Assembly (NCBI GenBank): GCA_012522555.1
Contig: JAAYKG010000172.1
Span: 1-33,608 of the forward strand
Source of the DNA: Armatimonadota bacterium
Lineage (GTDB): Bacteria > Armatimonadota > UBA5829
Direction: 5' to 3'
Length of the DNA stretch: 33,608 nt
Position numbers and translations under genes: made by a program. Below, in pieces: positions 3,803 to 33,533 of the stretch; within the stretch, counting starts at the first letter, position 1; each line of letters starts with the position of its first letter. Under the pieces are notes generated by a model. That model ran no database searches, was not told where the DNA came from, and saw nothing but the letters and a program-made list of their open reading frames with translations.

Positions 3803-5038
3803 ATGTCTGCTGGTTACAGTTCTGTGCTTATCACGGGCACAGAGTCGGATAATCCGTTTGCAATCGATATAGGGGTGTTTTGCGGACAGCTTACCGACAT
3901 AGCCGACGTCATCTCCCTGAAAACATTTGCCAACACAGAGTTTTGCCCCAGATTCATCTCCGACGAAAAAGATATGGAAGCCATCGGCAACAAGCTTAGC
4001 GGTTCAACCGTCGTTATGGTCTCGACCGCCTCTAATACTCTATCCAGAAATGAACTGGCGATGCGCACTATGCTTGTGGCTCGAGCGGCCAAAGACAACG
4101 GTTCCAGAAAAGTGATTTTAGTGGAGCCGGATCTGTTTTTCAGCGCCCAGGACAGAGGGCCGCGGCCGGAGCATGGGCAGATGACGTTCGACAGAAGCCC
4201 GGCAGATTTCAAGAAATTCGACGGCCAGCCATTTACCAGTCGATTTTACGCCCAGGCGCTGACATTGGCCGGGGTCGACGCCGTCATTACGGTTCACAAT
4301 CACTCGACGTCTGTGAAAAAGCTGTTCAGAGAAGTAATGCGAGGGGAGTTCGTCAATCTTAACCCGGCCGAAGTGTTCGCGGATTATATTCGCAACTCGG
4401 ATGTCGCTCCGGGATTGGTGAGCGGAGCAGGGCTGCTGGTGTGTGCGCCGGATGCCGGGGCGAGAGAATTCGCCACACAGGTTTTCGACCACCTCCATGC
4501 TGATACTGCGGGTTTGCTGTATTTTGCAAAACAGCGGACCGATGAGCGTAATGTGTCGAGTATGATATCCCCGGAATCGCCCTGTCCGGTTGAATCGATC
4601 AAAGGCAAGGACGTGATCGTCTTCGACGACATGGTTCGTACTGGCAACACCATAAAGGAGTGCTGCCGGCTGCTTAAAGAAGCTGGAGCGGGACGGGTTG
4701 TGTTTTTTGTGACACATTTCTATTCATCCCCTGAGGTTCGGGAAACACTCGCCACTCAGGCGGTAGATGAGATCGTGACTACCAACACCATTCCGTCTAT
4801 ACTTAACCGCGACATGCAGGGCAGGCTGCGGCGCAAATTGACCGTTCTGAAGCTGGAAAAATGGATAGCGGACTACACAATGCGCTATATCGGTCAACAA
4901 CCGAGCAAATTGGATGGGATCACTTACACTATAGATATGTCCTCCAAAAACCCTCGATGGAGGGTGGAAACAGATCATTTGATCAGGACCATCGATGTGC
5001 AGCCGGAGCTGGATTTTTCATCGCGCTCTGAAGTTTAG
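3803..5038 (+). CDS. Divergent ribose-phosphate pyrophosphokinase (PRPP synthetase)-like / phosphoribosyltransferase-fold protein
   Basis: PRPP-loop-like VIVFDDMVRTGNTI; two-domain Prs-like layout (FSAQDR vs YARQDR; VDAVITVHNHS vs VDxVLTVDLHA). SD-like AGAGGG upstream of the ATG. Confidence 0.8.
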   Translation: MSAGYSSVLITGTESDNPFAIDIGVFCGQLTDIADVISLKTFANTEFCPRFISDEKDMEAIGNKLSGSTVVMVSTASNTLSRNELAMRTMLVARAAKDNGSRKVILVEPDLFFSAQDRGPRPEHGQMTFDRSPADFKKFDGQPFTSRFYAQALTLAGVDAVITVHNHSTSVKKLFREVMRGEFVNLNPAEVFADYIRNSDVAPGLVSGAGLLVCAPDAGAREFATQVFDHLHADTAGLLYFAKQRTDERNVSSMISPESPCPVESIKGKDVIVFDDMVRTGNTIKECCRLLKEAGAGRVVFFVTHFYSSPEVRETLATQAVDEIVTTNTIPSILNRDMQGRLRRKLTVLKLEKWIADYTMRYIGQQPSKLDGITYTIDMSSKNPRWRVETDHLIRTIDVQPELDFSSRSEV

Positions 5039-7445: not shown

Positions 7446-7458
7446 TTCCATCTGTGTG

Positions 7459-7487
7459 ATCCCTCCGGGAGGTGTTCTCGGAGGGAT
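7459..7487 (+). terminator. Rho-independent terminator after eno
   Basis: ATCCCTCCG...CGGAGGGAT 9-bp perfect stem, then TGTTTC. Confidence 0.7.
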
Positions 7488-7581
7488 TGTTTCATCGGCA
7501 GGCATCTGGTCTCTTGTAAAGCCCATTAGTGGATTTCCCGAAAAATCTGCACGAGATAAGTTCCTTACAAGGAGAGCCGTT

Positions 7582-9744
7582 ATGAACTTTGATGCGATTA
7601 CCCGCCGCGAATTTATTGCCTCAGCGGGATTAGGCGTTGCTGCCGCTATGCTGCCGTCTTTTGCCGCTTCGAACAAGCCCGCATACGCTTTGGAAGAATC
7701 CGGCACACACCCGTATAGGCCATATACACTGTCCCCATATGACAAGGGGATGATGATCGAAGACGCCTGGCCGACGATTTTTTTCGGCGATGAAACTATT
7801 GGCGAGATTAAGCGCAAAGTTGCGAAGTTGGATTGGGCGAAAAAAGCGGTGGCGCGAATGGTGAAAGAGGCGGAAGGGGTTATGCTCAAGGGACCTCAGC
7901 TTCCCGTAGAGCGGGCGGGCTGGCGGCATGATTTCTATTCTCGCGCTACTGGAGAGCACCTGTTGTATGATCCCGACTCGTGCGACAAATTTCTCGACCC
8001 GTCGACGGGCAAATACGAATATGATGAGGCTCAGCGCAGAGCGTGGGCGCTGCTGACCCACGAGCGAACATTTCGGATGATGCGCAGCGTGGGGGTATTG
8101 TATGGCGTAACGGGAGATGAGCGATATGCGAGCTGGATTGCCGATGGGATGCGCCAGGCTGTGGAATATTTCAAGCACGACGAATTTATGAAAGGCAGCG
8201 CGTTATATTTTCAGGCGCTGTATGACGCGGCCATATTGATGATCCTGGCTAATATTTTTAGCCTCACAAAAAACAGCAGCGCCTATAGCAAGCAGGATGT
8301 TGAGAACATTCGTGTTGGGATATTCGAGAAAGATATGGGCGAGATGCTTGATTTCCTGTCGAAGAACCCTGGCGGCAATATGTCTTGTTATGTCGCTGGG
8401 GCATTGGCGTGCTCGGGGCGGGTCTTCGAGCGTGACGATTGGACGAATGCGGCCACTGGGGAGTCGTCCGGGGCCAGAACGCTGCTTACCACAAGCTTAT
8501 ATCAAGACAAAGAGAAGAAAACCGACGGACTATGGCATGAGGGCACCATGTTTTATCATTTTTATTCGATGTGCCCATTGGTGACTGTGCGTGAGCAGGC
8601 GGTAAAGATGAACGATCCTATTATTAAGGATGCTGCTCTGTGGAGCCGATTCGAGGAGATGTTCGCTGCGCCGGTCGCGTTGGTTGATGAAAGGCTTCGA
8701 CTGCCTTTGATTGGAGATCTCGGCGCGCCGAAGGTTATGAACTTAGCCGCATATCGACACCTGTATGAGTATGCGGCGGGGCAGATCAATTTTGAGCGTT
8801 TCGGGCCAATATTGGCGGCGATCTACGAGCGCAGCAAAGCGATGCGTGGAGAGATGTCGGCTTTGGCGTTTGGACCGGATTCGCTGCCGAAACCTGGGGG
8901 AACCCCGAAAAAGAGCACGCTTCTGCCCTGCGCGGAGATTGGAACGTTTCGCTGTGGTTCACTGCAAGTATTGTTCCGCGCGGGGAGATATCGCGGCGGA
9001 CACGATCATCCGGATAAACTACAGATCACCCTCAGCGCATTCGGCCAGCCTATATCCCCTGATCTGGGAACACCCGGATATTCGATTTTGCCGATAGTGC
9101 AGCACTACCATCGAGCCACTGTGGCGCATAACACATTGTTCAGCGATGAGACGCACCTCAAAGGAACCTCTGTTCTCGAATGGCGTGGTGATGAGGAAAA
9201 TCCGCGAGCGAGAGCAAGTGTGGTCGATGAGGGGGTGCGATATCAGCGAACGGTTTTCTTTTCGCCGCCATATGTTGTGCTGCTGGATGAGTATTCTTCA
9301 GACGACGATCATCGGTTCGGTTGGGCGTATCATTCGTATGGTAAGCTGAGTGTTGCGTCGCCAACCCTCGAAGGTGGGTCGAAAGAGCTGCTGGGGATGC
9401 CGGCTTTGCGGAGCGATGGCCCATTTTCTATGCTCACCGATCGATTCAGCGGGGCGACTTCCGGCTCGATTAGGGGTATTTGGAATGTGTCGCGGGCAAT
9501 CAAGCTGCATTTGCTGTCGGTGGCAGACGCGCCTACTGAGGTTACTTGCTGCAAGTCGATAGGAAACCCGAACACGGATAATTTAGACTGCCTTATATTG
9601 CGCTCACCCGGCAAATCGCTGCGAATAGCGACTGTGCTGGAACCATCACGAGTTGACAGCACCCTCGAGTCGGTGAAATTCGAGGATATCTCAGTTGCGG
9701 TAGGGCTGAGGGGCGGGGGCAGACGGATTTACACGTGGGATTGA
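7582..9744 (+). CDS. Heparinase II/III-like protein with twin-arginine signal
   Basis: MNFDAITRREFIASAGLGVAAAMLPSFA (Tat-like motif), C-terminal RAGRYRGGHDHPDKLQITLSAFGQPISPDLGTPGYS...HYHRATVAHNTL. Start at 7582 preceded by AAGGAGAG. Confidence 0.85.
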   Translation: MNFDAITRREFIASAGLGVAAAMLPSFAASNKPAYALEESGTHPYRPYTLSPYDKGMMIEDAWPTIFFGDETIGEIKRKVAKLDWAKKAVARMVKEAEGVMLKGPQLPVERAGWRHDFYSRATGEHLLYDPDSCDKFLDPSTGKYEYDEAQRRAWALLTHERTFRMMRSVGVLYGVTGDERYASWIADGMRQAVEYFKHDEFMKGSALYFQALYDAAILMILANIFSLTKNSSAYSKQDVENIRVGIFEKDMGEMLDFLSKNPGGNMSCYVAGALACSGRVFERDDWTNAATGESSGARTLLTTSLYQDKEKKTDGLWHEGTMFYHFYSMCPLVTVREQAVKMNDPIIKDAALWSRFEEMFAAPVALVDERLRLPLIGDLGAPKVMNLAAYRHLYEYAAGQINFERFGPILAAIYERSKAMRGEMSALAFGPDSLPKPGGTPKKSTLLPCAEIGTFRCGSLQVLFRAGRYRGGHDHPDKLQITLSAFGQPISPDLGTPGYSILPIVQHYHRATVAHNTLFSDETHLKGTSVLEWRGDEENPRARASVVDEGVRYQRTVFFSPPYVVLLDEYSSDDDHRFGWAYHSYGKLSVASPTLEGGSKELLGMPALRSDGPFSMLTDRFSGATSGSIRGIWNVSRAIKLHLLSVADAPTEVTCCKSIGNPNTDNLDCLILRSPGKSLRIATVLEPSRVDSTLESVKFEDISVAVGLRGGGRRIYTWD

Positions 9745-10389: not shown

Positions 10390-13368
10390 ATGATGATGGA
10401 TATACTTGTGATGTTAGCGATGCTTGCGCCGGGCGGACACCCGCGGTTGTATCATGATCCCGCGTCTCTGACCCGTGCGATGGACAACGTGCAGCACGCT
10501 TCGTGGGCGCTGGCATATCGCGATTCGACGATTGCTGCGGCTGATAAGTGGGCAGCTAAGCCCTCCGCCGAGCTTAGAGCATTGGTCCCTGCGCCGGGAT
10601 CGACGTTTGCTTATGGGTTCGATGGCTGCCCCTCGTGCGGCGCCAACTGGCCGTGGTGGGGCGCACAAATATCATCGTTCGATATGCCGGGCCGCGTCAC
10701 CTGTCCGGAATGTCGTAAAGTGTTTCCCAACGACGATTTCCCGGATCCTGGGGGCGGTTGGCGCAATCCGGAAACCGGCAAGGTTTATTATACGGTGGGC
10801 TGTTATAACGCTTATGCCGCCCGGCAGATAAACTTAAACATACTGCCCAGCCTCGCTCGAGCTTATGCTTTGACTAAGGATCGCAAGTATTCCAACGCCG
10901 CTGCGGTTATATTTGATAGGCTGGCAGAGTTGTATCCGGTTTCAACGGTAGGATCTGCGGATTATCCGTCAAACCCCAATTCCGGCAGACTCGAGCAGCC
11001 CCAATATCAAGTCGCGCGGATTTTGGTCGTTCTCGCTAATGCGCTTGATTTGCTGTATGATAGCCCGGAATTTGGGGCGCCTTCGACCTCCGGCAAAGGC
11101 AGCGTTCGAGATCATATTAAAACGGCCATAATCGCAGATGGAGGCAAATATTGTTACGATATGGCGGCGAGGGGCTACTGTCGGCTCACCAATGGTCAGG
11201 CGGATTATATAAGAGGAACCCTGGCTGCAGGAATAATGACCGATAATAAGCTCTGGATCGACTACGCGATCAAGGGGCCTTATAACGTATATAATTTTCT
11301 GGATAATTGCCTCGACCGGGATGGTCAGAACTACGAGACCTCTATAGGCTACAGCGGGCATGCGATCGGCTTGTATCTTGATATGGCCGAGATGCTCTAT
11401 CATCTGAGTACCGAGGAATATCCCGAGGGGATAAATCTCTACGAGCATCCCAAGTTCCAAAAAGCGCTCTCGGTTGCGATGGCTGATATTGACTGCTTCG
11501 GGCATTCCCCGCGTTTTGGGGATTCGGGGCCGGATTTCAGCGTGGTGAGCGACGATGCGCCGTTTTCTGCCAGAGATATGTTATGGGCGGAGCATTTGGC
11601 GGCACGCGCCAGAGACACTGAACAGTGGTCGGCGATGCGTAATGCAATAGCTCGAGGGGATGTTGAAGCGCGCCGAAACGAAAAGGCGATGAGCGGATCG
11701 CGATCATGGCTGACTTTTCACGCAAGCCCTGCCACAAAGACAAAAAAACGAGTCAACTTAGAACCACGAACCCTGCTGGGCGGACGAGGGGTGACAATTC
11801 TTCGCTCCGGCAAGGGATCAAGCGGCCGGGCAGCGCTGCTGCGTTATGGACCGTGCCTGAACCACGGCCATCGCGACGATCTCAATCTTAACTTTTTTGG
11901 CCTGGGACGAGAGCTGACCTACGACTTCGGTTATTATCTCGGCAGCGCACACGTCCAGGTCGGTTTGGCTAACACAACGGCAAGCCATAACCTCGTCGTG
12001 GTAAATGAGCAGAATCAGATGAAAGCAGGGAGCGGCGGCGATTTATATTTCTGCACTGATGCGGCTCCTGTTCGAGCGGTGGAAGCGTCATCGGAAGCTT
12101 GCTACGCATCGGAAAATGTAAAGACCTATAGACGGACGTTGGCTATGGTCGACATCGGAAAGGGTTCATATCTTGTCGACATATTCCGCACGGCTGGAGG
12201 AAACCAGCACGACTTGATGTGGCATTTCGCAGGGAAACAAGACTCTGTAACAGGCGCTGCTCTAGGAGAAGCGCAAAAAACCGGAAGCCTCGCCGGTGAA
12301 GATATAGATTGGGGTCGACACGTCGGCTCGTCGGGATATCTGCGAAACGCTCAGGACAAAGGCGGCTATTGGAACCCGCCGCCAGGAAATGGCTACGGCT
12401 TCTTTTATGATGTACGGCGGGCAAAGGCGGACGGAGCGTGCAGCGCGACCTGGAAGTTGACTGATGATAACACTCAGCGCCTCAAACTGACACTGCTGCC
12501 GGAACCGGGCTGCGAACTAATCACCGCCAGCGCGCCGGGCATCCTACCGGACTATCCAAAGGCAGATTTCGCAATTCTTCGACGTAAGGGGGCTGATCTG
12601 AGCAGCACATTTGTGTCGATCGTCGAACCATCGGACACAGGAGGCGCTGTATTATCGGCTGATAGAATGCGATGCGAATCCGGGGATGCGGTCGGTGTCG
12701 AGATCAAGACAACCGCAGGCTTCGACTACGTGTTAAGCTCATTATCCGGAAAGCCGTCTGTGCTGCTTACAAACGACGGACAAAGGATCGATTTTGAAGG
12801 CCGTTTCGGGTTTATTCGCATCGAGGGCGGCAAGGTGGCAAGCAGCCGATTGGTCGGTGGCACAAACCTTGCGATCGGCTCGTATACTCTCAAGTCAAAC
12901 AAGGGTGTAGAGGGTGGAGTAAAAGAAATCAATTATGAGCTTTCCAAAATCACTATCGATCGCGTCGTGACGGATCTGCCTGAAATTGTATATTTCTCCC
13001 GCGACGGGTATTCGCACTCCTCTCCTTATCTGGTTAAATCTGTAGACGGCTCCAATATCACCCTCGACGGCGATTTTGTGATCGGCAGAGGGCAGATCGG
13101 ACAGGACGGGCCTAAGTCCGATTCAATCGGCAACGTCGTGCCTTTGCCTCGCTCTATTATCGTCAGTGGGGCAAAAAGCGACTATTTCCGAGGTAAATTG
13201 ATAGTCAACGACCGGACCAAAAAAAGTACGACGGTAATCAATGTCGAATCGGATCAAATCACGGTGCGTGTAAACGACCCGAGCATTTTCAGCGCGGGGG
13301 ATTCTTTCACAATATACGATGTGCAGCCGGGGGATACGCTCAGTTCGCCGTTGATAATCGGCAAATGA
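10390..13368 (+). CDS. Large heparinase II/III-like polysaccharide lyase family protein with CxxC zinc-ribbon-like segment and C-terminal extension
   Basis: GCPSCGANWPWWG...VTCPECRKVFPNDDFPDPGGGW...; YGPCLNHGHRDDLNLNFFGLGRELTYDFGYYLGSAH (heparinase II/III-like core). Confidence 0.8.
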   Translation: MMMDILVMLAMLAPGGHPRLYHDPASLTRAMDNVQHASWALAYRDSTIAAADKWAAKPSAELRALVPAPGSTFAYGFDGCPSCGANWPWWGAQISSFDMPGRVTCPECRKVFPNDDFPDPGGGWRNPETGKVYYTVGCYNAYAARQINLNILPSLARAYALTKDRKYSNAAAVIFDRLAELYPVSTVGSADYPSNPNSGRLEQPQYQVARILVVLANALDLLYDSPEFGAPSTSGKGSVRDHIKTAIIADGGKYCYDMAARGYCRLTNGQADYIRGTLAAGIMTDNKLWIDYAIKGPYNVYNFLDNCLDRDGQNYETSIGYSGHAIGLYLDMAEMLYHLSTEEYPEGINLYEHPKFQKALSVAMADIDCFGHSPRFGDSGPDFSVVSDDAPFSARDMLWAEHLAARARDTEQWSAMRNAIARGDVEARRNEKAMSGSRSWLTFHASPATKTKKRVNLEPRTLLGGRGVTILRSGKGSSGRAALLRYGPCLNHGHRDDLNLNFFGLGRELTYDFGYYLGSAHVQVGLANTTASHNLVVVNEQNQMKAGSGGDLYFCTDAAPVRAVEASSEACYASENVKTYRRTLAMVDIGKGSYLVDIFRTAGGNQHDLMWHFAGKQDSVTGAALGEAQKTGSLAGEDIDWGRHVGSSGYLRNAQDKGGYWNPPPGNGYGFFYDVRRAKADGACSATWKLTDDNTQRLKLTLLPEPGCELITASAPGILPDYPKADFAILRRKGADLSSTFVSIVEPSDTGGAVLSADRMRCESGDAVGVEIKTTAGFDYVLSSLSGKPSVLLTNDGQRIDFEGRFGFIRIEGGKVASSRLVGGTNLAIGSYTLKSNKGVEGGVKEINYELSKITIDRVVTDLPEIVYFSRDGYSHSSPYLVKSVDGSNITLDGDFVIGRGQIGQDGPKSDSIGNVVPLPRSIIVSGAKSDYFRGKLIVNDRTKKSTTVINVESDQITVRVNDPSIFSAGDSFTIYDVQPGDTLSSPLIIGK

Positions 13369-13413: not shown

Positions 13414-15411
13414 TCAGTCTTCCAAATTGAGCCACTTCGCTTCATCCGGGGTCAACTCGATATCGAGAGCGGCCAACGAGACCATAAGCTCGCTCAACTT
13501 TTCAGGCCCGATCAGCGGAAAGACCGGGAATGGGAGGTGCAGCAGATACGCCAGCGCGATCTGCACCGGGAGCGCTCCCTTTCGATCCGCTAGCTTCTGC
13601 GCCCGCGCCAGCCGCTCGAAATTGTCCTCGCAATACCAGCAATTCACCAGCATCTGATCCGACAGATCATCGGCTGCGCCACGTGCGAAGAACCCCTTCG
13701 CAAGGCTCGACCACGCCAGAAGTGGCATCTGGTTATTAGTGAACCATTTCCACGACTCGGCATCTGTTGATGAAAGGCAGCCCTCCCACGGCGGCGCAAC
13801 CATACGTGCAAGGCTGAAGTTGTTGCTGACCGAGGTAAATCCGCGCAGCCCCTTGGATTTCGCATAGGCGTTGGCCTCGTCTATGCGCTGCAAAGTCCAG
13901 TTAGAACCGCCGAACGCGCGCAATCGGCCGGCATTGAGTTGTTCGTTCAGCGCATCAACAAACTCACCTACGGGTATCTCCGGATTATCCCGATGCAGCA
14001 CATAAAGATCTACATAGTCCGTGTTCATTCTCTCCAGAGTCTCCGCCAATTGGCTGCGAATCGCCTCCGGATTGCAGTTCGGAGTGTGCGCCCCTTTTGC
14101 AAGGATCACAACGTCATCGCGGATGCCCCTGTTGGCGACCCATCTTCCGAGAATATAATCGGAATTGCCGTAAATATACGCGGTATCGAAGCAGTTGCCG
14201 CCATTGCGAAAGTATTCATCAAAAATGATCGAAGCGTGGGGGAGTTGGAATTGCGCACCGGCCAAAGTCGCACCTTGAATCAGCCGTGATACGGGTTTAT
14301 CGAGGCCCTCTATCTTTCCGTATGGCATCTTTGTTTCGGGTCGCCGCTTGAGCGGTCGGCGGTCGATGGTTGGGTAATTAGAGGTCGGCTGTTCGATGTC
14401 ATAAACCAAACCGATAGCAAGCCTCCATGTGTCACAAGTGCGCATGTTGCCAAGCGTATCGTCCCAGGTCATCGCCGGCGGCGCGGCCTGCCTGTTGGCG
14501 ATATTTGCAGCCACAACATCAGCTTCATATGCATATACCCCCCGATCGGACTCGACGCTGACATCCTCCGGCGCCTGACCACAGCGGGTGAGAGTCATCG
14601 CGGGCCTATCCCCCTGCTTATCAGGATTCCAGAAACCCGGCAGGTAGATATTTCCCTGGGTTCCAAAGACGTGCAGGGAGTTGTCTTGATTGAGCCGAAC
14701 CCCGGTAGAGATCTGAGCGATGATATCTCCTGGAAATCGCAGCAGCGCCGCGGTGTATTCATCCACGCCGGTCTCTGCGAGCTTGCCGATAGCTTTTACC
14801 TCGACAGGCTCGGCAAAGTCTTGCCCCATCGCAGCTCCGGCAATAAGGCGCGAAACAGATGTCGTGTAGCAGCCCACATCCAGGATCCCGCCCCCACCCA
14901 GTGAGTTTTTGAAAAGCCTCCCCTCGGGATTAAACCCGGCATCGAAACTGAATGAAGCCTTTATCATTCGCACCTCGCCGATAGCTTTGTCTTTGATAAG
15001 CTCGACGAGTTTGGCGATCTGGGGGTGGCAGCGATACATGAACGCTTCCATTAAGAAGACATCGCTGCGACGAGCGGCCTCCACCACAGCCATCGCGTCA
15101 GGGTAGTTTATGGTGAGTGGCTTCTCGCAAAGTATATGCTTGCCCGCCTCAGCCGCCTTAACCGCCCACTCGGCGTGCATTGGATGTGGGGTGCTGATAT
15201 ACACTGCCTGCACATCCGGGTCCGCTAACAACAATTCATAGCTGCCGTAACATCGCGTCACTTTCATCTCAGCGCCAAACTTATCCGCTGATTTTTGGCT
15301 GCGGCTGCCCACCGCCAACAATTTTCCGGTCCCCGATTCAGCCAGGCCCGCCGCAAATTTTCTGGCTATATTTCCCGTCCCGATAATCCCCCACGCAAGT
15401 CTTTCGTTCAT
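13414..15411 (-). CDS. Gfo/Idh/MocA oxidoreductase - aldo/keto reductase fusion protein
   Basis: N-half: WGIIGTGNIARKFA, CEKPLT, GGGGILDVGCY. C-half: FDTAYIYGNSDYILGRWV, VVILAKGAH, VDLYVLHRDNP (AKR tetrad D/Y/K/H). One uninterrupted 665-aa ORF. Confidence 0.93.
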   Translation of the reverse strand: MNERLAWGIIGTGNIARKFAAGLAESGTGKLLAVGSRSQKSADKFGAEMKVTRCYGSYELLLADPDVQAVYISTPHPMHAEWAVKAAEAGKHILCEKPLTINYPDAMAVVEAARRSDVFLMEAFMYRCHPQIAKLVELIKDKAIGEVRMIKASFSFDAGFNPEGRLFKNSLGGGGILDVGCYTTSVSRLIAGAAMGQDFAEPVEVKAIGKLAETGVDEYTAALLRFPGDIIAQISTGVRLNQDNSLHVFGTQGNIYLPGFWNPDKQGDRPAMTLTRCGQAPEDVSVESDRGVYAYEADVVAANIANRQAAPPAMTWDDTLGNMRTCDTWRLAIGLVYDIEQPTSNYPTIDRRPLKRRPETKMPYGKIEGLDKPVSRLIQGATLAGAQFQLPHASIIFDEYFRNGGNCFDTAYIYGNSDYILGRWVANRGIRDDVVILAKGAHTPNCNPEAIRSQLAETLERMNTDYVDLYVLHRDNPEIPVGEFVDALNEQLNAGRLRAFGGSNWTLQRIDEANAYAKSKGLRGFTSVSNNFSLARMVAPPWEGCLSSTDAESWKWFTNNQMPLLAWSSLAKGFFARGAADDLSDQMLVNCWYCEDNFERLARAQKLADRKGALPVQIALAYLLHLPFPVFPLIGPEKLSELMVSLAALDIELTPDEAKWLNLED

Positions 15412-15622: not shown

Positions 15623-15660
15623 GCCTCCGGCTGTCAATGCTGCGCTAAATGGAGATAATT

Positions 15661-17919
15661 ATGCTCGAGGGAATAGCAAAAGTCGGCGATGACACACCGC
15701 CAGACGACCGACAGAATATCTTGATTGCTTTGGCCAATCTGTCGAAAATTCTCGGGGCATCCGAAGCTGATTCCACATTCACGGAACTGGCTGAAACCGC
15801 AGCCACGATGCTGCGCGTGGAAAGAGCCGCCATTTTTTTGAAACGAGACGGCGAAGCGCTGTCTGTGGTCGGGCAAGTGGGACAAAGCGACGACGAATCG
15901 TTTACAAAAGGTGCAATTTTGGCAGCCGAGGAAGCGCTGTTTGGCGTGGAACCTGTCATCCATTCGGATATCTCATTAAGCGACTCGCTTAATGGATTGT
16001 CTGAGGCAGGAGTAGTTTCACTGTTGTGCGTGCCGCTTAGTATCGGCCGAGCGAGCGTCGGTGCGATAGTTGCAGCCTCCAACAAAAAGCGCAAATTTTC
16101 CTCCACCGACGTCGAGCTACTCCATACCGTCGCCAGCCAGACCGCACTCAAAGCTTGGCCGGAGGTCCCGGAATCTGAGTGCCTCGATCAGGCGGAGTTA
16201 ATCAGGCTGGCCCAACGCAAGATTCAAGAACTTTCGTTGATAAACCAGGTTAGCGGAGCCGTCAGCTCTACTTTGGACATTGATGTGCTGATCGACATCG
16301 CCCTCGAGCAGAGCATGCTGGCGGTTGGGGCGGATACCGGGTCTTTGATGCTGGTTCACGAAGAGACAGGCAAACTGCAGATCGCCGCGGCGCACGGGTT
16401 GGCCCGCAAAACCGTGGAAAACACTTCCCAGCAGATCGGAACCAGCGTGGCCGGATGGGTGGCCGAGCACGGAGAGAGTGTGCTGGTCTCAAACGCTCAC
16501 ACCGACACCCGATTTCGCATGCCATTTTATCGGGACGACATAACATCGGCGGCATCGGTGCCCCTAAAGACCAAATCCGAGGTCATCGGGGTGCTTAACG
16601 TGAACACCACCCGCCCGGATCGCAAGTTCGATGAGCGCGACCTGGCGCTGCTGGGGACCGTGGCCAACGAACTTGCCGCTGCAATAGAAAACGCCCGCCT
16701 GTATGCACGCGTAAATCGCCGCACAAAACAGCTCGACAGCTTGTTGACGATATCTCAAACCGTTACGTCCACCCTTAACCTCGATGAACTATTGCGACGT
16801 CTCAGCGATGAGATCACCAAATTGTTCACTCTCGATGCATGCATGATTCTTTTGCTTGACGACCTTAGCGGCAGGCTGCGACTAGGATATGGGACAGGAC
16901 TAAAGGCTCGCCGCCGATACGCTTATTATGACGCCGCGTCGCCGTTGGCTGCGCATATAGTCAAAACTCGCAGCAGACTGGTGATCAAAGATGTTCAGAA
17001 GTCAAGGAACTTTGCTACCGAGGTATCGGCTCGCGAGGGTCTTCGATCCGCCGTATGCCTTCCATTGAAGAACGCGGGCAAGCTGGTGGGGGTAGCGGTC
17101 GGCTTCGCAAAGGATGTGCGAGTTTTTCCAAAATCTCAGCGCGAGATAATGCGTCCGCTTGGCGAATTGGCCGGGGTGGCGATCCGCAACGCCAGGGTAT
17201 ACCGCCAGAAATATAAAATGGCGGAAATTCTGACCCAACGGACTATGCCTTCGACGATACCGGGGGTGGAAGGGCTGGATATCGGTCACAAATTTATGCC
17301 TGTTCACGAAATCGGGGGGGATTATTACGATTTCCTGCAAGTCGAGCCTGGAAAGATCGGGGTTGTCATGGCTGATGTTTCCGGCCATGATGTGGAAGCC
17401 GCCGAATATACCAGTATGGGCAAACACGTAATACGAGCCTACGCTAGAGAGCACATATTTCCCGCTCGCGTTCTGAGCAACACAAACGATCTTATCTGTG
17501 AGGACACCCGCGCAGAGATATTTATCAGCGCATTCTATGGGGTCATCGATCTGCAAAAAAAGAAGTTGCACCACGCCAACGCCGGCTGCGAAAGGCCGAT
17601 ACTCTACAGGCCCAGTGAAGGCAGCGTCTCACGATTAGAGGCCGATGGGATGCTGCTGGGAATTATGGCCCATACTCACTTCGAGGAGCGTGAAATCGAC
17701 CTTAAACCGGGGGATATAATCGCGATGTTCACCGATGGTCTTACCGAGGCGGGGATCGACAAGGATCGCTTTGGAGACGACCGAACAATCGCTGCGATAG
17801 CTGCCAGCGCTCGATTGTCCGCCCAGCAAATCGCCGATTCTATCTCCAACGCGCTCGCTGATTTCGTGCGGGGCCAGATGTCTGACGATGTTGCAATAGT
17901 AGTAATAAAAATCATTTAG
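15661..17919 (+). CDS. Multi-GAF domain SpoIIE/PP2C-type serine phosphatase (RsbU-like)
   Basis: Three GAF-like segments, then SpoIIE: DIGHKFMPVHEIGGDYYDFLQVEPGKIGVVMADVSGHDVEAAEYTSM...IIAMFTDGLTEAG. ATG 15661 has GGAG 6 nt upstream, favoured over 15649. Confidence 0.93.
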   Translation: MLEGIAKVGDDTPPDDRQNILIALANLSKILGASEADSTFTELAETAATMLRVERAAIFLKRDGEALSVVGQVGQSDDESFTKGAILAAEEALFGVEPVIHSDISLSDSLNGLSEAGVVSLLCVPLSIGRASVGAIVAASNKKRKFSSTDVELLHTVASQTALKAWPEVPESECLDQAELIRLAQRKIQELSLINQVSGAVSSTLDIDVLIDIALEQSMLAVGADTGSLMLVHEETGKLQIAAAHGLARKTVENTSQQIGTSVAGWVAEHGESVLVSNAHTDTRFRMPFYRDDITSAASVPLKTKSEVIGVLNVNTTRPDRKFDERDLALLGTVANELAAAIENARLYARVNRRTKQLDSLLTISQTVTSTLNLDELLRRLSDEITKLFTLDACMILLLDDLSGRLRLGYGTGLKARRRYAYYDAASPLAAHIVKTRSRLVIKDVQKSRNFATEVSAREGLRSAVCLPLKNAGKLVGVAVGFAKDVRVFPKSQREIMRPLGELAGVAIRNARVYRQKYKMAEILTQRTMPSTIPGVEGLDIGHKFMPVHEIGGDYYDFLQVEPGKIGVVMADVSGHDVEAAEYTSMGKHVIRAYAREHIFPARVLSNTNDLICEDTRAEIFISAFYGVIDLQKKKLHHANAGCERPILYRPSEGSVSRLEADGMLLGIMAHTHFEEREIDLKPGDIIAMFTDGLTEAGIDKDRFGDDRTIAAIAASARLSAQQIADSISNALADFVRGQMSDDVAIVVIKII

Positions 17920-23879: not shown

Positions 23880-25094
23880 ATGGCTGATCTCAACCAAACC
23901 CCGTCGAGTGAACGGGTTCATATCACGATATTCGGCAGGCGCAACGCCGGCAAGTCGAGCTTGATAAATGCTCTCACGAACCAGAGCCTTGCCATAGTGG
24001 CGGATGTGCCGGGCACGACCACCGATCCTGTGTCGAAGTCTATGGAGCTGCTCCCCATAGGGCCGGTTGTCATTACCGATACGGCCGGAATAGACGACAG
24101 CGGGGAACTGGGCGGGATGCGGGTCGAGAAAACCCTGCGAGCGCTGGAAAATACCGATATTGCCATACTTGTAATCGAAGCCGGAACACTGCCGGAAAAA
24201 TGGGAAGATGACCTCGTCGGCAAAGTAAAGGAACGCGAGATCCCGCTGCTCGTATGTGCGACCAAGATAGATAAGGCGGCCCAATTCGACCACATCCGCA
24301 AATGGGCCGCCGAACACAGCACGCTGTTTATTCCGGTAAGCTCCACGGCACGACAGGGAATCGAGCACTTGAAGCTGGCTTTGGGGGAATTGTCCCCAAA
24401 AGGCGGCCCCGATCCGCAGATTATCGGCGACCTGATCAGCGAGGGTGACATAGTGGTGCTGGTGGTTCCGCTCGATAAGGCGGCTCCAAAAGGCAGGTTG
24501 ATCCTGCCGCAGGTGATGACGATTCGTGACGCGCTGGATTACGATGCGTTCGCAGTCACTGTGCGCGAAAAGGTGCTGCGCGAGTGTCTGAATGGTCTTG
24601 GGCGCGACCCCAGACTGGTGATTACGGATTCGCAGGTCTTCGGCCAGGTGGATGCCTTGACGCCGAAAAGAATACAAATGACCAGCTTTTCGATTTTGCT
24701 TGCCAGATATCGCGGCGACCTGGCCGCGCTGGCCGCCGGAGCAAAGGCGATAGATCAGCTCAAAATCGGGGATCGAGTGCTGATATCGGAAGGCTGCACC
24801 CACCACCAGCAAGACGACGACATCGGCCGCGTGCAGATCCCGAACTGGCTGCAAAAAGAGGTCGGTGGGAAACTGGAGTTCGGTTTTTCATCGGGCCGAG
24901 ACTTCCCAAAAGACTTCGACACCTACGACTTGATCGTCCACTGCGGCGGTTGCATGATCAACAAAAGAGAGATGCTCTATAGACAGAGAGTGGCCTCGGA
25001 GGCAGGGATTGCTATGACCAACTATGGGGTGTTGCTGGCCAAGGTCAACGGGATTCTGGATAGGGCTATGGAGCCGTTCGCACACCTCATCTAA
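23880..25094 (+). CDS. hydF: [FeFe]-hydrogenase H-cluster maturation GTPase HydF
   Basis: GTPase motifs GRRNAGKSSLINAL, DTAG, TKID; HydF cluster-binding motif CTH...HCGGC (EGCTHH ... VHCGGCM). Confidence 0.96.
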   Translation: MADLNQTPSSERVHITIFGRRNAGKSSLINALTNQSLAIVADVPGTTTDPVSKSMELLPIGPVVITDTAGIDDSGELGGMRVEKTLRALENTDIAILVIEAGTLPEKWEDDLVGKVKEREIPLLVCATKIDKAAQFDHIRKWAAEHSTLFIPVSSTARQGIEHLKLALGELSPKGGPDPQIIGDLISEGDIVVLVVPLDKAAPKGRLILPQVMTIRDALDYDAFAVTVREKVLRECLNGLGRDPRLVITDSQVFGQVDALTPKRIQMTSFSILLARYRGDLAALAAGAKAIDQLKIGDRVLISEGCTHHQQDDDIGRVQIPNWLQKEVGGKLEFGFSSGRDFPKDFDTYDLIVHCGGCMINKREMLYRQRVASEAGIAMTNYGVLLAKVNGILDRAMEPFAHLI

Positions 25095-30684: not shown

Positions 30685-31030
30685 TCAGTAAGGGGACCTC
30701 AAATGCAGAATACTAGTGCAATTATACAACAATCGACGCGCCCCGCCGAGTTATTGTATAAAGCTCTATTCCATATCTTCGAACAATGAAGTAAATCTAT
30801 CCGTATACGGCCACTTGTTGGGAAAACGCTTCCTTTTCTATACAGTCGAGGAAGTGTCTGATGTTTCTTGGGCGGAGTGCTTGAGGTTCTGGCCGACCTC
30901 GTATACTACGCTCTGATCCAATCTGCAAGTTGGCTTTGTGTCAAACCTGTCTTGTTTTGAGGCTGTTTCTGGCAATCTTTGGAGCGGTGTGGTAGACTGT
31001 CTTACACCCAACGTCAGGAGTATATTTTCA

Positions 31031-32500
31031 GTGTCGCTACGTATAGTCGCAATCGCCGACATTCACTATGCCGACGGCCCTATTAAACAAACCGGACCCA
31101 GACAAACCTCAAAAGCTGATATTCTTCTACAGCGAAGTATAAATCGCATCAACAGATTCATTAAACCCGACCTGACGGTTATTCTCGGAGATCTCGTCGA
31201 CGATGCTTCCGAAGAAGACCTCACAAAACTCAAGGAAGCTATCGATAGCATAAAATCCCCATGCATAGTGCTGCCGGGAAACCACGACGGCGATGCTTTC
31301 TACAAAGTATTTCCCGCTCCACCAGAGTCTTTGGATATCGATGGAGTGAGGATTTTGAGCTTCGTCGATGAGCAACTGCCCGAGTATAACGCCCGGCGAT
31401 CCGAGCGAGATATTGCTCGGATGTATCAAGCCAGGCGTGAGCACGACGGCCCGATTATATCACTCCAGCACGTCCCGCTGCTGCTGCGCCACGCCAGCCA
31501 GTCCCCTTATCGGTATACTAATGATAAGGAAACCTGGGAGGCGTTTGAGCGTAACGGTTTTTCTCTTTCGATCAGCGGGCATTGGCATCCCGGGGACGAT
31601 TTGGTCGCTCGTGAGGAATGCAGGGCCGTTGTGGTTCCGGCTCTGTGCGAGCATCCATTTGCCTTTTTTGAGATCAACATAGATGGCGATAATATCCAGA
31701 CCAGACGGCATGAGCTTGCGATTCCCAAAGAACTGGAACTGATCGATTATCATATACATACCCCCTTTGCTTATTGCAGCCAGAATATGGAGATCCCGGT
31801 GACATTTGAGCTGGCCGAACAGTTTGGGCTGGCGAAACTTGCGTTTACCGAGCACTCGGGGCAGCTCTACTTCGAACGTCAGACTTACTGGTCCGCGGCA
31901 TTTCTCGATGATGCCCTGGCATACTCCGAGGGCAAAAACAATCGCATGGACGATTTTATTGCGGTGGCCAAGCAGCATTGCCCTCCTGCACTGTTGGGAC
32001 TGGAAATCGACTGCGACAACTCCGGCAAGCCGATCGTTCATCGTTATGTGTGGGATCAGATCCAGGTCAAGCTCGGCTCCAAACACTGGCTCAAAGCTCT
32101 CAGGAAACCTGAAGATGAGATCGACGTGCAGGAAGCTGCCGATGAAATGGTCGGCAGGCTGTCGAAATTTGCGGCAAGCGGGATCGATATTCTTGCGCAT
32201 CCGCTGAGAGTATTCAGGAAGTGGGCGGATGAGGATCTGCCGGCAAACCTCATCCCCGGCATTGTCGAGCAGCTTAGACTGAACAATGTTGCCGCAGAGA
32301 TCAACTTCCACGGCCAGATAACGACCCCGCTGTTTCTCAACACCTGCCTCGATGCCGGCGTTAAAGTCGTGTTCGGCAGCGATTCGCACACATATTATGA
32401 AATCGGCGAGTTCGGCCCGCATCTGGATCTAATCAAAGCCTGCGGCCTGAGCTATGCCGATCTGCCAAATATTCTTGCCAATATCGGCAGCGGAGAATGA
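31031..32500 (+). CDS. Calcineurin-like metallophosphoesterase fused to a PHP-domain phosphoesterase
   Basis: Metallophosphoesterase motifs: ADIHYAD, LGDLVDD, PGNHDGD, QHVP, SGHWHPG. PHP motifs: DYHIHTPF, FTEHSG, GLEIDCD, ILAHPLR, GSDSHTY. GTG 31031 with AGGAG about 10 nt upstream is a better start than 30938. Confidence 0.9.
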   Translation: MSLRIVAIADIHYADGPIKQTGPRQTSKADILLQRSINRINRFIKPDLTVILGDLVDDASEEDLTKLKEAIDSIKSPCIVLPGNHDGDAFYKVFPAPPESLDIDGVRILSFVDEQLPEYNARRSERDIARMYQARREHDGPIISLQHVPLLLRHASQSPYRYTNDKETWEAFERNGFSLSISGHWHPGDDLVAREECRAVVVPALCEHPFAFFEINIDGDNIQTRRHELAIPKELELIDYHIHTPFAYCSQNMEIPVTFELAEQFGLAKLAFTEHSGQLYFERQTYWSAAFLDDALAYSEGKNNRMDDFIAVAKQHCPPALLGLEIDCDNSGKPIVHRYVWDQIQVKLGSKHWLKALRKPEDEIDVQEAADEMVGRLSKFAASGIDILAHPLRVFRKWADEDLPANLIPGIVEQLRLNNVAAEINFHGQITTPLFLNTCLDAGVKVVFGSDSHTYYEIGEFGPHLDLIKACGLSYADLPNILANIGSGE

Positions 32501-32504
32501 TAAA

Positions 32505-33533
32505 ATGGAAACAACCAGGCTTGGCCGAACAAATCTGACTGTGACGCGCACCGGGTTCGGGGTTTTACCCTTACAGCGGTGTGATATGGATGAGGCTGTC
32601 CGAATTCTCAGGGCTGCATATCACGGCGGGATTACGTTCTATGACACCGCTCGCAACTACAGCGACAGCGAGACCAAAATCGGCCGGGCGCTTTGCGATG
32701 TGCGGGACTCGATCGTTATCGCGACCAAATCCGGCTCCAGCACTCGTGCGGGAGTGATAAGAGATTTGGAGAGAAGCCTGGCCGAGCTTAAAACGGATTA
32801 TGTCGATCTACTTCAACTGCACAATCCCGCCGAAATCCAAAACCCTGACGATGAAGAGTCCGCCTATGCAGGCCTGATCGAAGCCCGCGACAAAGGGATG
32901 ACGCGATTTATAGGTATCACGAATCATATCCTCGATCGCGCTGAGGCAGCAATAAAGTCCGGAATGTACGACACTTTGCAATACCCGTTGTGCCATATAT
33001 CATCCCCGAAGGACTTGGCGCTTATCGATATGTGCAAATCGGCGGATATGGGGGTTATCGCGATGAAGCCTCTCTCCGGTGGCTTGATTACACATCTCGC
33101 GCCGGCGTTTGCCTATCTGCGACAATTCGATAATGTGATCCCGATATGGGGAATCCAAAAGATGAGCGAGCTTGAAGAACTGCTTGCAGCCGAAGCAAAC
33201 CCGCCGACGCCCAACGACGAGATGCTGTCGATAATAGAAAACGATCGCTGCGAGCTGGCGGGGGATTTCTGCAGGGCGTGCGGTTACTGTTTGCCGTGCC
33301 CGCAGGGTATTCCTATCACAATGGCCGCCAGGATGCCACTGCTGCTGAGGCGCGCTCCCTGGCAGGGGTTTATCAATGAAGAATGGTATGCAAAAATGCA
33401 TCTTGTCGAGAATTGCACGGATTGCGGCGACTGCCGTTCGAGATGCCCCTACGGCCTCAATCCTCCGGCTATGCTCGCCAAAGCCCTGGCTGATTATGAT
33501 GAGTTTTATGAGCAGCATGCAGGCGATGCCTGA
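32505..33533 (+). CDS. Aldo/keto reductase with C-terminal 4Fe-4S ferredoxin-like domain
   Basis: RLGRTNLTVTRTGFGVLPL...FYDTARNYSDSE...IATKSGS...LLQLHNP; C-terminal CRACGYCLPCPQGIPI and CTDCGDCRSRCPYGL. Confidence 0.95.
   Translation: METTRLGRTNLTVTRTGFGVLPLQRCDMDEAVRILRAAYHGGITFYDTARNYSDSETKIGRALCDVRDSIVIATKSGSSTRAGVIRDLERSLAELKTDYVDLLQLHNPAEIQNPDDEESAYAGLIEARDKGMTRFIGITNHILDRAEAAIKSGMYDTLQYPLCHISSPKDLALIDMCKSADMGVIAMKPLSGGLITHLAPAFAYLRQFDNVIPIWGIQKMSELEELLAAEANPPTPNDEMLSIIENDRCELAGDFCRACGYCLPCPQGIPITMAARMPLLLRRAPWQGFINEEWYAKMHLVENCTDCGDCRSRCPYGLNPPAMLAKALADYDEFYEQHAGDA

Follow-up and report, generated by a model that had tools for sequence, protein, structure and literature searches.

Organization of the locus

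The window, that is, the whole stretch of 33,608 nucleotides analyzed here (contig JAAYKG010000172.1 of an Armatimonadota bacterium), carries a gene that joins a calcineurin-type metallophosphoesterase (MPE) domain to a PHP domain, followed directly by a gene for an aldo/keto reductase (AKR). The features of this locus are as follows.

~31015..31019, plus strand: AGGAG, resembling a ribosome-binding site, 5' of the GTG start (read directly; coordinates approximate)
31031..32500, plus strand: MPE-PHP fusion gene, 489 aa, from GTG at 31031 to TGA ending at 32500
31031..31729, plus strand: MPE domain, residues 1-233 (PF00149, profile matches, invariant ligands)
31730..32497, plus strand: PHP domain, residues 234-489 (PF02811, profile matches, invariant ligands)
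32505..33533, plus strand: AKR with a C-terminal 4Fe-4S dicluster domain (PF00248, E 5e-31; PF13534, E 1e-8)

The reading frame of the fusion given in the first-pass annotation proved correct. GTG at 31031 was adopted as the start on the basis of the upstream AGGAG, the AGGAG...GTG context likewise present in a homologue from the same genus (G008; 69% identical), and the start positions of the fusion homologues, which begin at the same residue as the window protein. A longer frame from 30938 reflects only an upstream in-frame start. An AlphaFold model of the fusion protein, built on a two-sequence alignment, had a pLDDT of 45. The protein is probably a genuine enzyme and would be located in the cytosol.

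Elsewhere, the window encodes a second double-domain protein of 665 aa, in which a Gfo/Idh/MocA oxidoreductase is joined with an aldo/keto reductase (13414-15411, minus strand). The plus strand carries two large proteins that end in heparinase II/III-like domains (7456-9744 and 10390-13368), separated by one small gene; a SpoIIE-type phosphatase with three GAF matches (15649-17919); a divergent ribose-phosphate pyrophosphokinase-like protein of 411 aa, the N-terminal match of which is weak (3803-5038); and a HydF-type GTPase for [FeFe]-hydrogenase maturation that has dimer and tetramer domains (23880-25094), directly 3' of which lies an apparent leucyl-tRNA synthetase, as judged by eye.

Two phosphoesterase domains with complete ligand sets

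Pfam searches revealed PF00149 (Metallophos) at residues 3-187 of the whole protein with 59.2 bits (E 9.5e-16), passing the curated cut-off of 21.5 bits, and in the N-terminal half alone with E 2.3e-16. PF02811 (PHP) followed at residues 239-355, but its score straddled the cut-off of 26.4 bits, falling just under it in the whole protein (23.9 bits) and just over it in the C-terminal half alone (26.5 bits, E 9e-6). The PHP assignment was based on the ligands and the family profile more than on Pfam alone.

The DxH / GDxxD / GNHD / H / GHxH ligand set of Metallophos is present in the window protein (D10-I-H12, G53-D54, G83-N-H-D86, H147 and G183-H-W-H186), and the ligands D10, H12, D54, N84, H147, H184 and H186, together with the catalytic-type H85, are invariant in all 13 full-length fusions described below. 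The PHP ligand set (HxH, [DE]H, E, H, H, DxH), aligned to the structures 2yxo and 4gc3, is also present (H241-I-H243, E274-H275, E325 in GLE, H352, H390-P and D451-S-H453), and H241, H243, E274, H275, E325, H352, H390, D451 and H453 are invariant in the same 13 proteins. The first-pass annotation had described a complete five-motif MPE fused to a PHP domain with its own metal ligands, and hence a single chain with two metal-dependent phosphoesterase folds unrelated to each other; both descriptions hold, as the ligands are intact and jointly conserved over deep divergence.

Comparison of an MPE-half profile with the PDB gave Lmo2642 as the top match (3.6e-11), followed by Rv0805 (5.9e-10), zebrafish 2nxf (3.2e-9) and GpdQ (2zo9; 9.8e-6), with weaker matches to Mre11/SbcD. 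Of these, 2nxf is ADPRibase-Mn (PMC3407115). The equivalog cut-offs of CpdA and SpdA were not reached by the fusion protein (25.6 vs 225 and 24.6 vs 400 bits, respectively). These matches place the MPE half, at the level of sequence profiles, near phosphodiesterases and diphosphatases (Rv0805, ADPRibase-Mn and GpdQ).

The best match of the PHP-half profile was 2yxo (5.2e-9), the T. thermophilus histidinol phosphatase; YcdX and the histidinol phosphatase 4gc3 were also matched, and PolX PHP domains more weakly. However, the protein stayed below the HisJ cut-offs (TIGR01856, 18.7 vs 90.2 bits; NF005596, 34.3 vs 202 bits, E 1.6e-8), and the window genome encodes a separate HisJ-family protein (112.9 bits over 150 residues, ended by a contig edge) as well as a further, distinct protein similar to the 3',5'-nucleoside bisphosphate phosphatases. 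The PHP half is thus not assignable to a named activity, and histidinol-phosphate and pAp, both put forward earlier as candidate substrates, become less likely.

Conservation of the fusion in Armatimonadota

A homologue search, covering first the order of the window genome and then 291 Armatimonadota genomes, revealed a full-length, single-frame fusion in 13 genomes (G000, which is the window genome, G008, G006, G007, G015, G207, G211, G246, G024, G247, G250, G274 and G275), with identities to the window protein ranging from 69% down to ~33%. Two further copies were broken or split: that of G014 (L018:4138-5642) consists of two overlapping frames split near residue 200, through sequencing error or recent decay, and that of G240 runs off two contig ends. 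Recurrence of the same fusion in 13 genomes ruled out an assembly artefact at the domain junction, which the first-pass annotation had named as a possible refutation.

Invariance of both ligand sets at 33-69% identity, which is far beyond chance, indicates that selection acts on the two sites within the same chain. Four non-ligand segments, A-Y-C, E-H-x-G-Q-L-Y, A-A-E-x-N-x-H and P-x-L-C-E-x-P, are also invariant in 13/13 and may line the substrate pockets. In a tree, the fused PHP domains occupied one side of a branch with 100/100 support, apart from distant stand-alone Armatimonadota PHPs, and this clade spans about ten families; the fusion is thus old and retained, being present in at least 13 species. 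The stand-alone PHP of G227 was nested among the fused PHPs and is a probable product of fission, the nesting nodes within that subclade being not all strongly supported. G025 contains the MPE half alone, close to a contig end.

No relative of the fusion was found in phages or viral contigs, and on plasmids the two halves occurred only apart from each other and in other phyla, as in the case of a stand-alone PHP from Sinorhizobium. Both kinds of domain are already known, and no paper on their pairing in one protein was found in the open-access literature; as far as that literature goes, the combination appears to be new.

Gene context

As the first-pass annotation stated, the Fe-S AKR follows the fusion by 4 bp, its ATG lying at 32505 in the window after the TGA that ends at 32500. 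In G008, the AKR is also downstream and its start lies inside the fusion stop codon, and in G006 and G007 it is upstream and overlaps the fusion start by 11 nt. Such tight coupling in both gene orders, found in two genera, argues for co-expression. The AKR, however, adjoins the fusion in only four of the 13 full-length cases: in G015 and G207 an orthologue is located elsewhere in the genome, and no AKR match at E 1e-60 was found in seven other fusion genomes (G211, G246, G024, G247, G250, G274 and G275). Conversely, five genomes that lack the fusion (G002, G003, G004, G017 and G018) have an AKR orthologue. The link is thus lineage-local, and the case for the small pathway suggested earlier for the two genes is weakened.

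Other neighbors of the fusion vary across the phylum, distant neighborhoods are unrelated, and no pathway is named by context. In G015 and G014, the fusion is directly followed by a sirtuin gene, which was rejected as a functional clue: most genomes of that family carry it, unlinked, whether or not they have the fusion. Two neighbors were each seen once: a RecQ-type helicase gene adjoins the contig-end copy of G240, and a DNA methylase-like gene follows the fusion in G275.

Proposed function and alternatives

When genes are fused, a shared metabolic role is strongly suggested. We infer catalysis at both sites: the N-terminal MPE, of the Rv0805/GpdQ/ADPRibase-Mn neighborhood, would hydrolyze a small metabolite at a phosphodiester or pyrophosphate bond, and the PHP site would then take off the resulting monophosphate. 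Where the Fe-S AKR is coupled, its target may be a carbonyl or alcohol group of the product. The diesterase step is favored by the invariant GNH histidine of the MPE, and the monoesterase step by the best PHP match being a monoester phosphatase (histidinol phosphatase, 5.2e-9). The sequential dephosphorylation proposed in the first-pass annotation is therefore made plausible by the profile relatives of both halves, and it stays a prediction. PHP-family enzymes able to cut diesters are known, such as Sb-PDE (PMC5460133), so the roles of the two domains could be less clear-cut. Likewise, the existence of stand-alone halves (the G227 PHP and the G025 MPE) means that one activity does not have to follow the other in strict sequence. 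Overall, we give a bifunctional phosphoesterase, with an MPE diesterase/pyrophosphatase step preceding a PHP monophosphatase step in one chain, roughly even chances. A bolder version is doubtful: an enzyme confined to Armatimonadota in our searches would channel its substrate, a phosphodiester or a metabolite linked to a nucleotide, through two unrelated metallo-phosphoesterase sites of one chain, with the Fe-S AKR, in some genera, catalyzing step three of what would be a new salvage pathway.

The two domains could instead act on unrelated substrates or as independent broad-specificity phosphatases, fused merely for joint expression or stability. Broad-specificity activity is common in the MPE and PHP superfamilies, and the variable gene context across the phylum and the separate halves in G025 and G227 fit such an arrangement; we nevertheless consider it rather unlikely, given that the fusion forms one clade, its sites being tightly conserved across some ten families. 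If the PHP half were the organism's histidinol-phosphatase, with the MPE half as an accessory, its best matches (NF005596 and 2yxo) would be explained, but its scores far under the curated HisJ cut-offs, the much better HisJ-family match elsewhere in the genome and the fact that no his genes were seen adjoining the fusion make this very improbable. An oligonucleotide or nucleic-acid end-processing enzyme has a low probability: nucleases exist in both superfamilies (Mre11/SbcD and PolX-PHP) and were among the weaker profile matches, whereas no DNA- or RNA-binding domain was found in the fusion protein and repair genes are not consistent neighbors, the helicase and methylase-like genes being isolated occurrences.

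A nucleotide-sugar or ADP-ribose enzyme was also weighed, in which the MPE would split ADP-ribose or an NDP-alcohol into NMP and a phospho-sugar or phospho-alcohol, to be dephosphorylated by the PHP, and a sugar aldehyde could be the substrate of the AKR. The 2nxf match covers the E-x-P after GHxH and the loop after D-x-[H/Q], where a near-invariant R24 falls in the segment matching the s2s3 element of ADPRibase-Mn, which bears a catalytic Arg (human Arg43; alignment uncertain by one residue), and the sirtuin gene in G015 and G014 would suit such chemistry. However, Rv0805 and Lmo2642 score equally well, the sirtuin is common throughout the family of G014 and G015, the MPE half of ~235 aa is too small for the 43-residue h7h8 element, and the D[V/I]Q signature of the first motif of ADPRibase-Mn (PMC4334965) was not found, all 13 fusions having D-x-H. 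This assignment accordingly seems improbable to us, and the two-step phosphoesterase remains the preferred reading. Few enzymes of this phylum have been characterized, and the fusion connects two phosphoesterase superfamilies that are among the largest and least assigned. It offers a concrete target of moderate size, the substrate of which would help annotate both superfamilies as well as the uncharacterized neighboring Fe-S AKRs.

Comparison with known systems

The MPE fold, all five motifs and the GNHD histidine are shared with Rv0805, the class III cyclic-nucleotide phosphodiesterases (Icc/CpdA/SpdA) and GpdQ, but the window protein falls below the curated CpdA and SpdA cut-offs and is fused to a PHP domain. 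ADPRibase-Mn resembles it in profile score, in the Arg-containing loop after motif I and in the E-x-P after motif V, whereas the fusion differs in its first motif, is shorter and is joined to PHP. Sb-PDE likewise uses a PHP domain to hydrolyze phosphoesters, diesters included, but is a secreted protein of 441 aa with a signal peptide, in which an MPE domain is not described (PMC5460133). The HisJ/HisK-type histidinol-phosphatases (2yxo and 4gc3) and YcdX have the PHP fold, by profile, and the complete metal-ligand positions in common with the fusion, which is distant from them, bears its own invariant AYC, EHxGQLY and AAExNxH segments, and is joined to an MPE.
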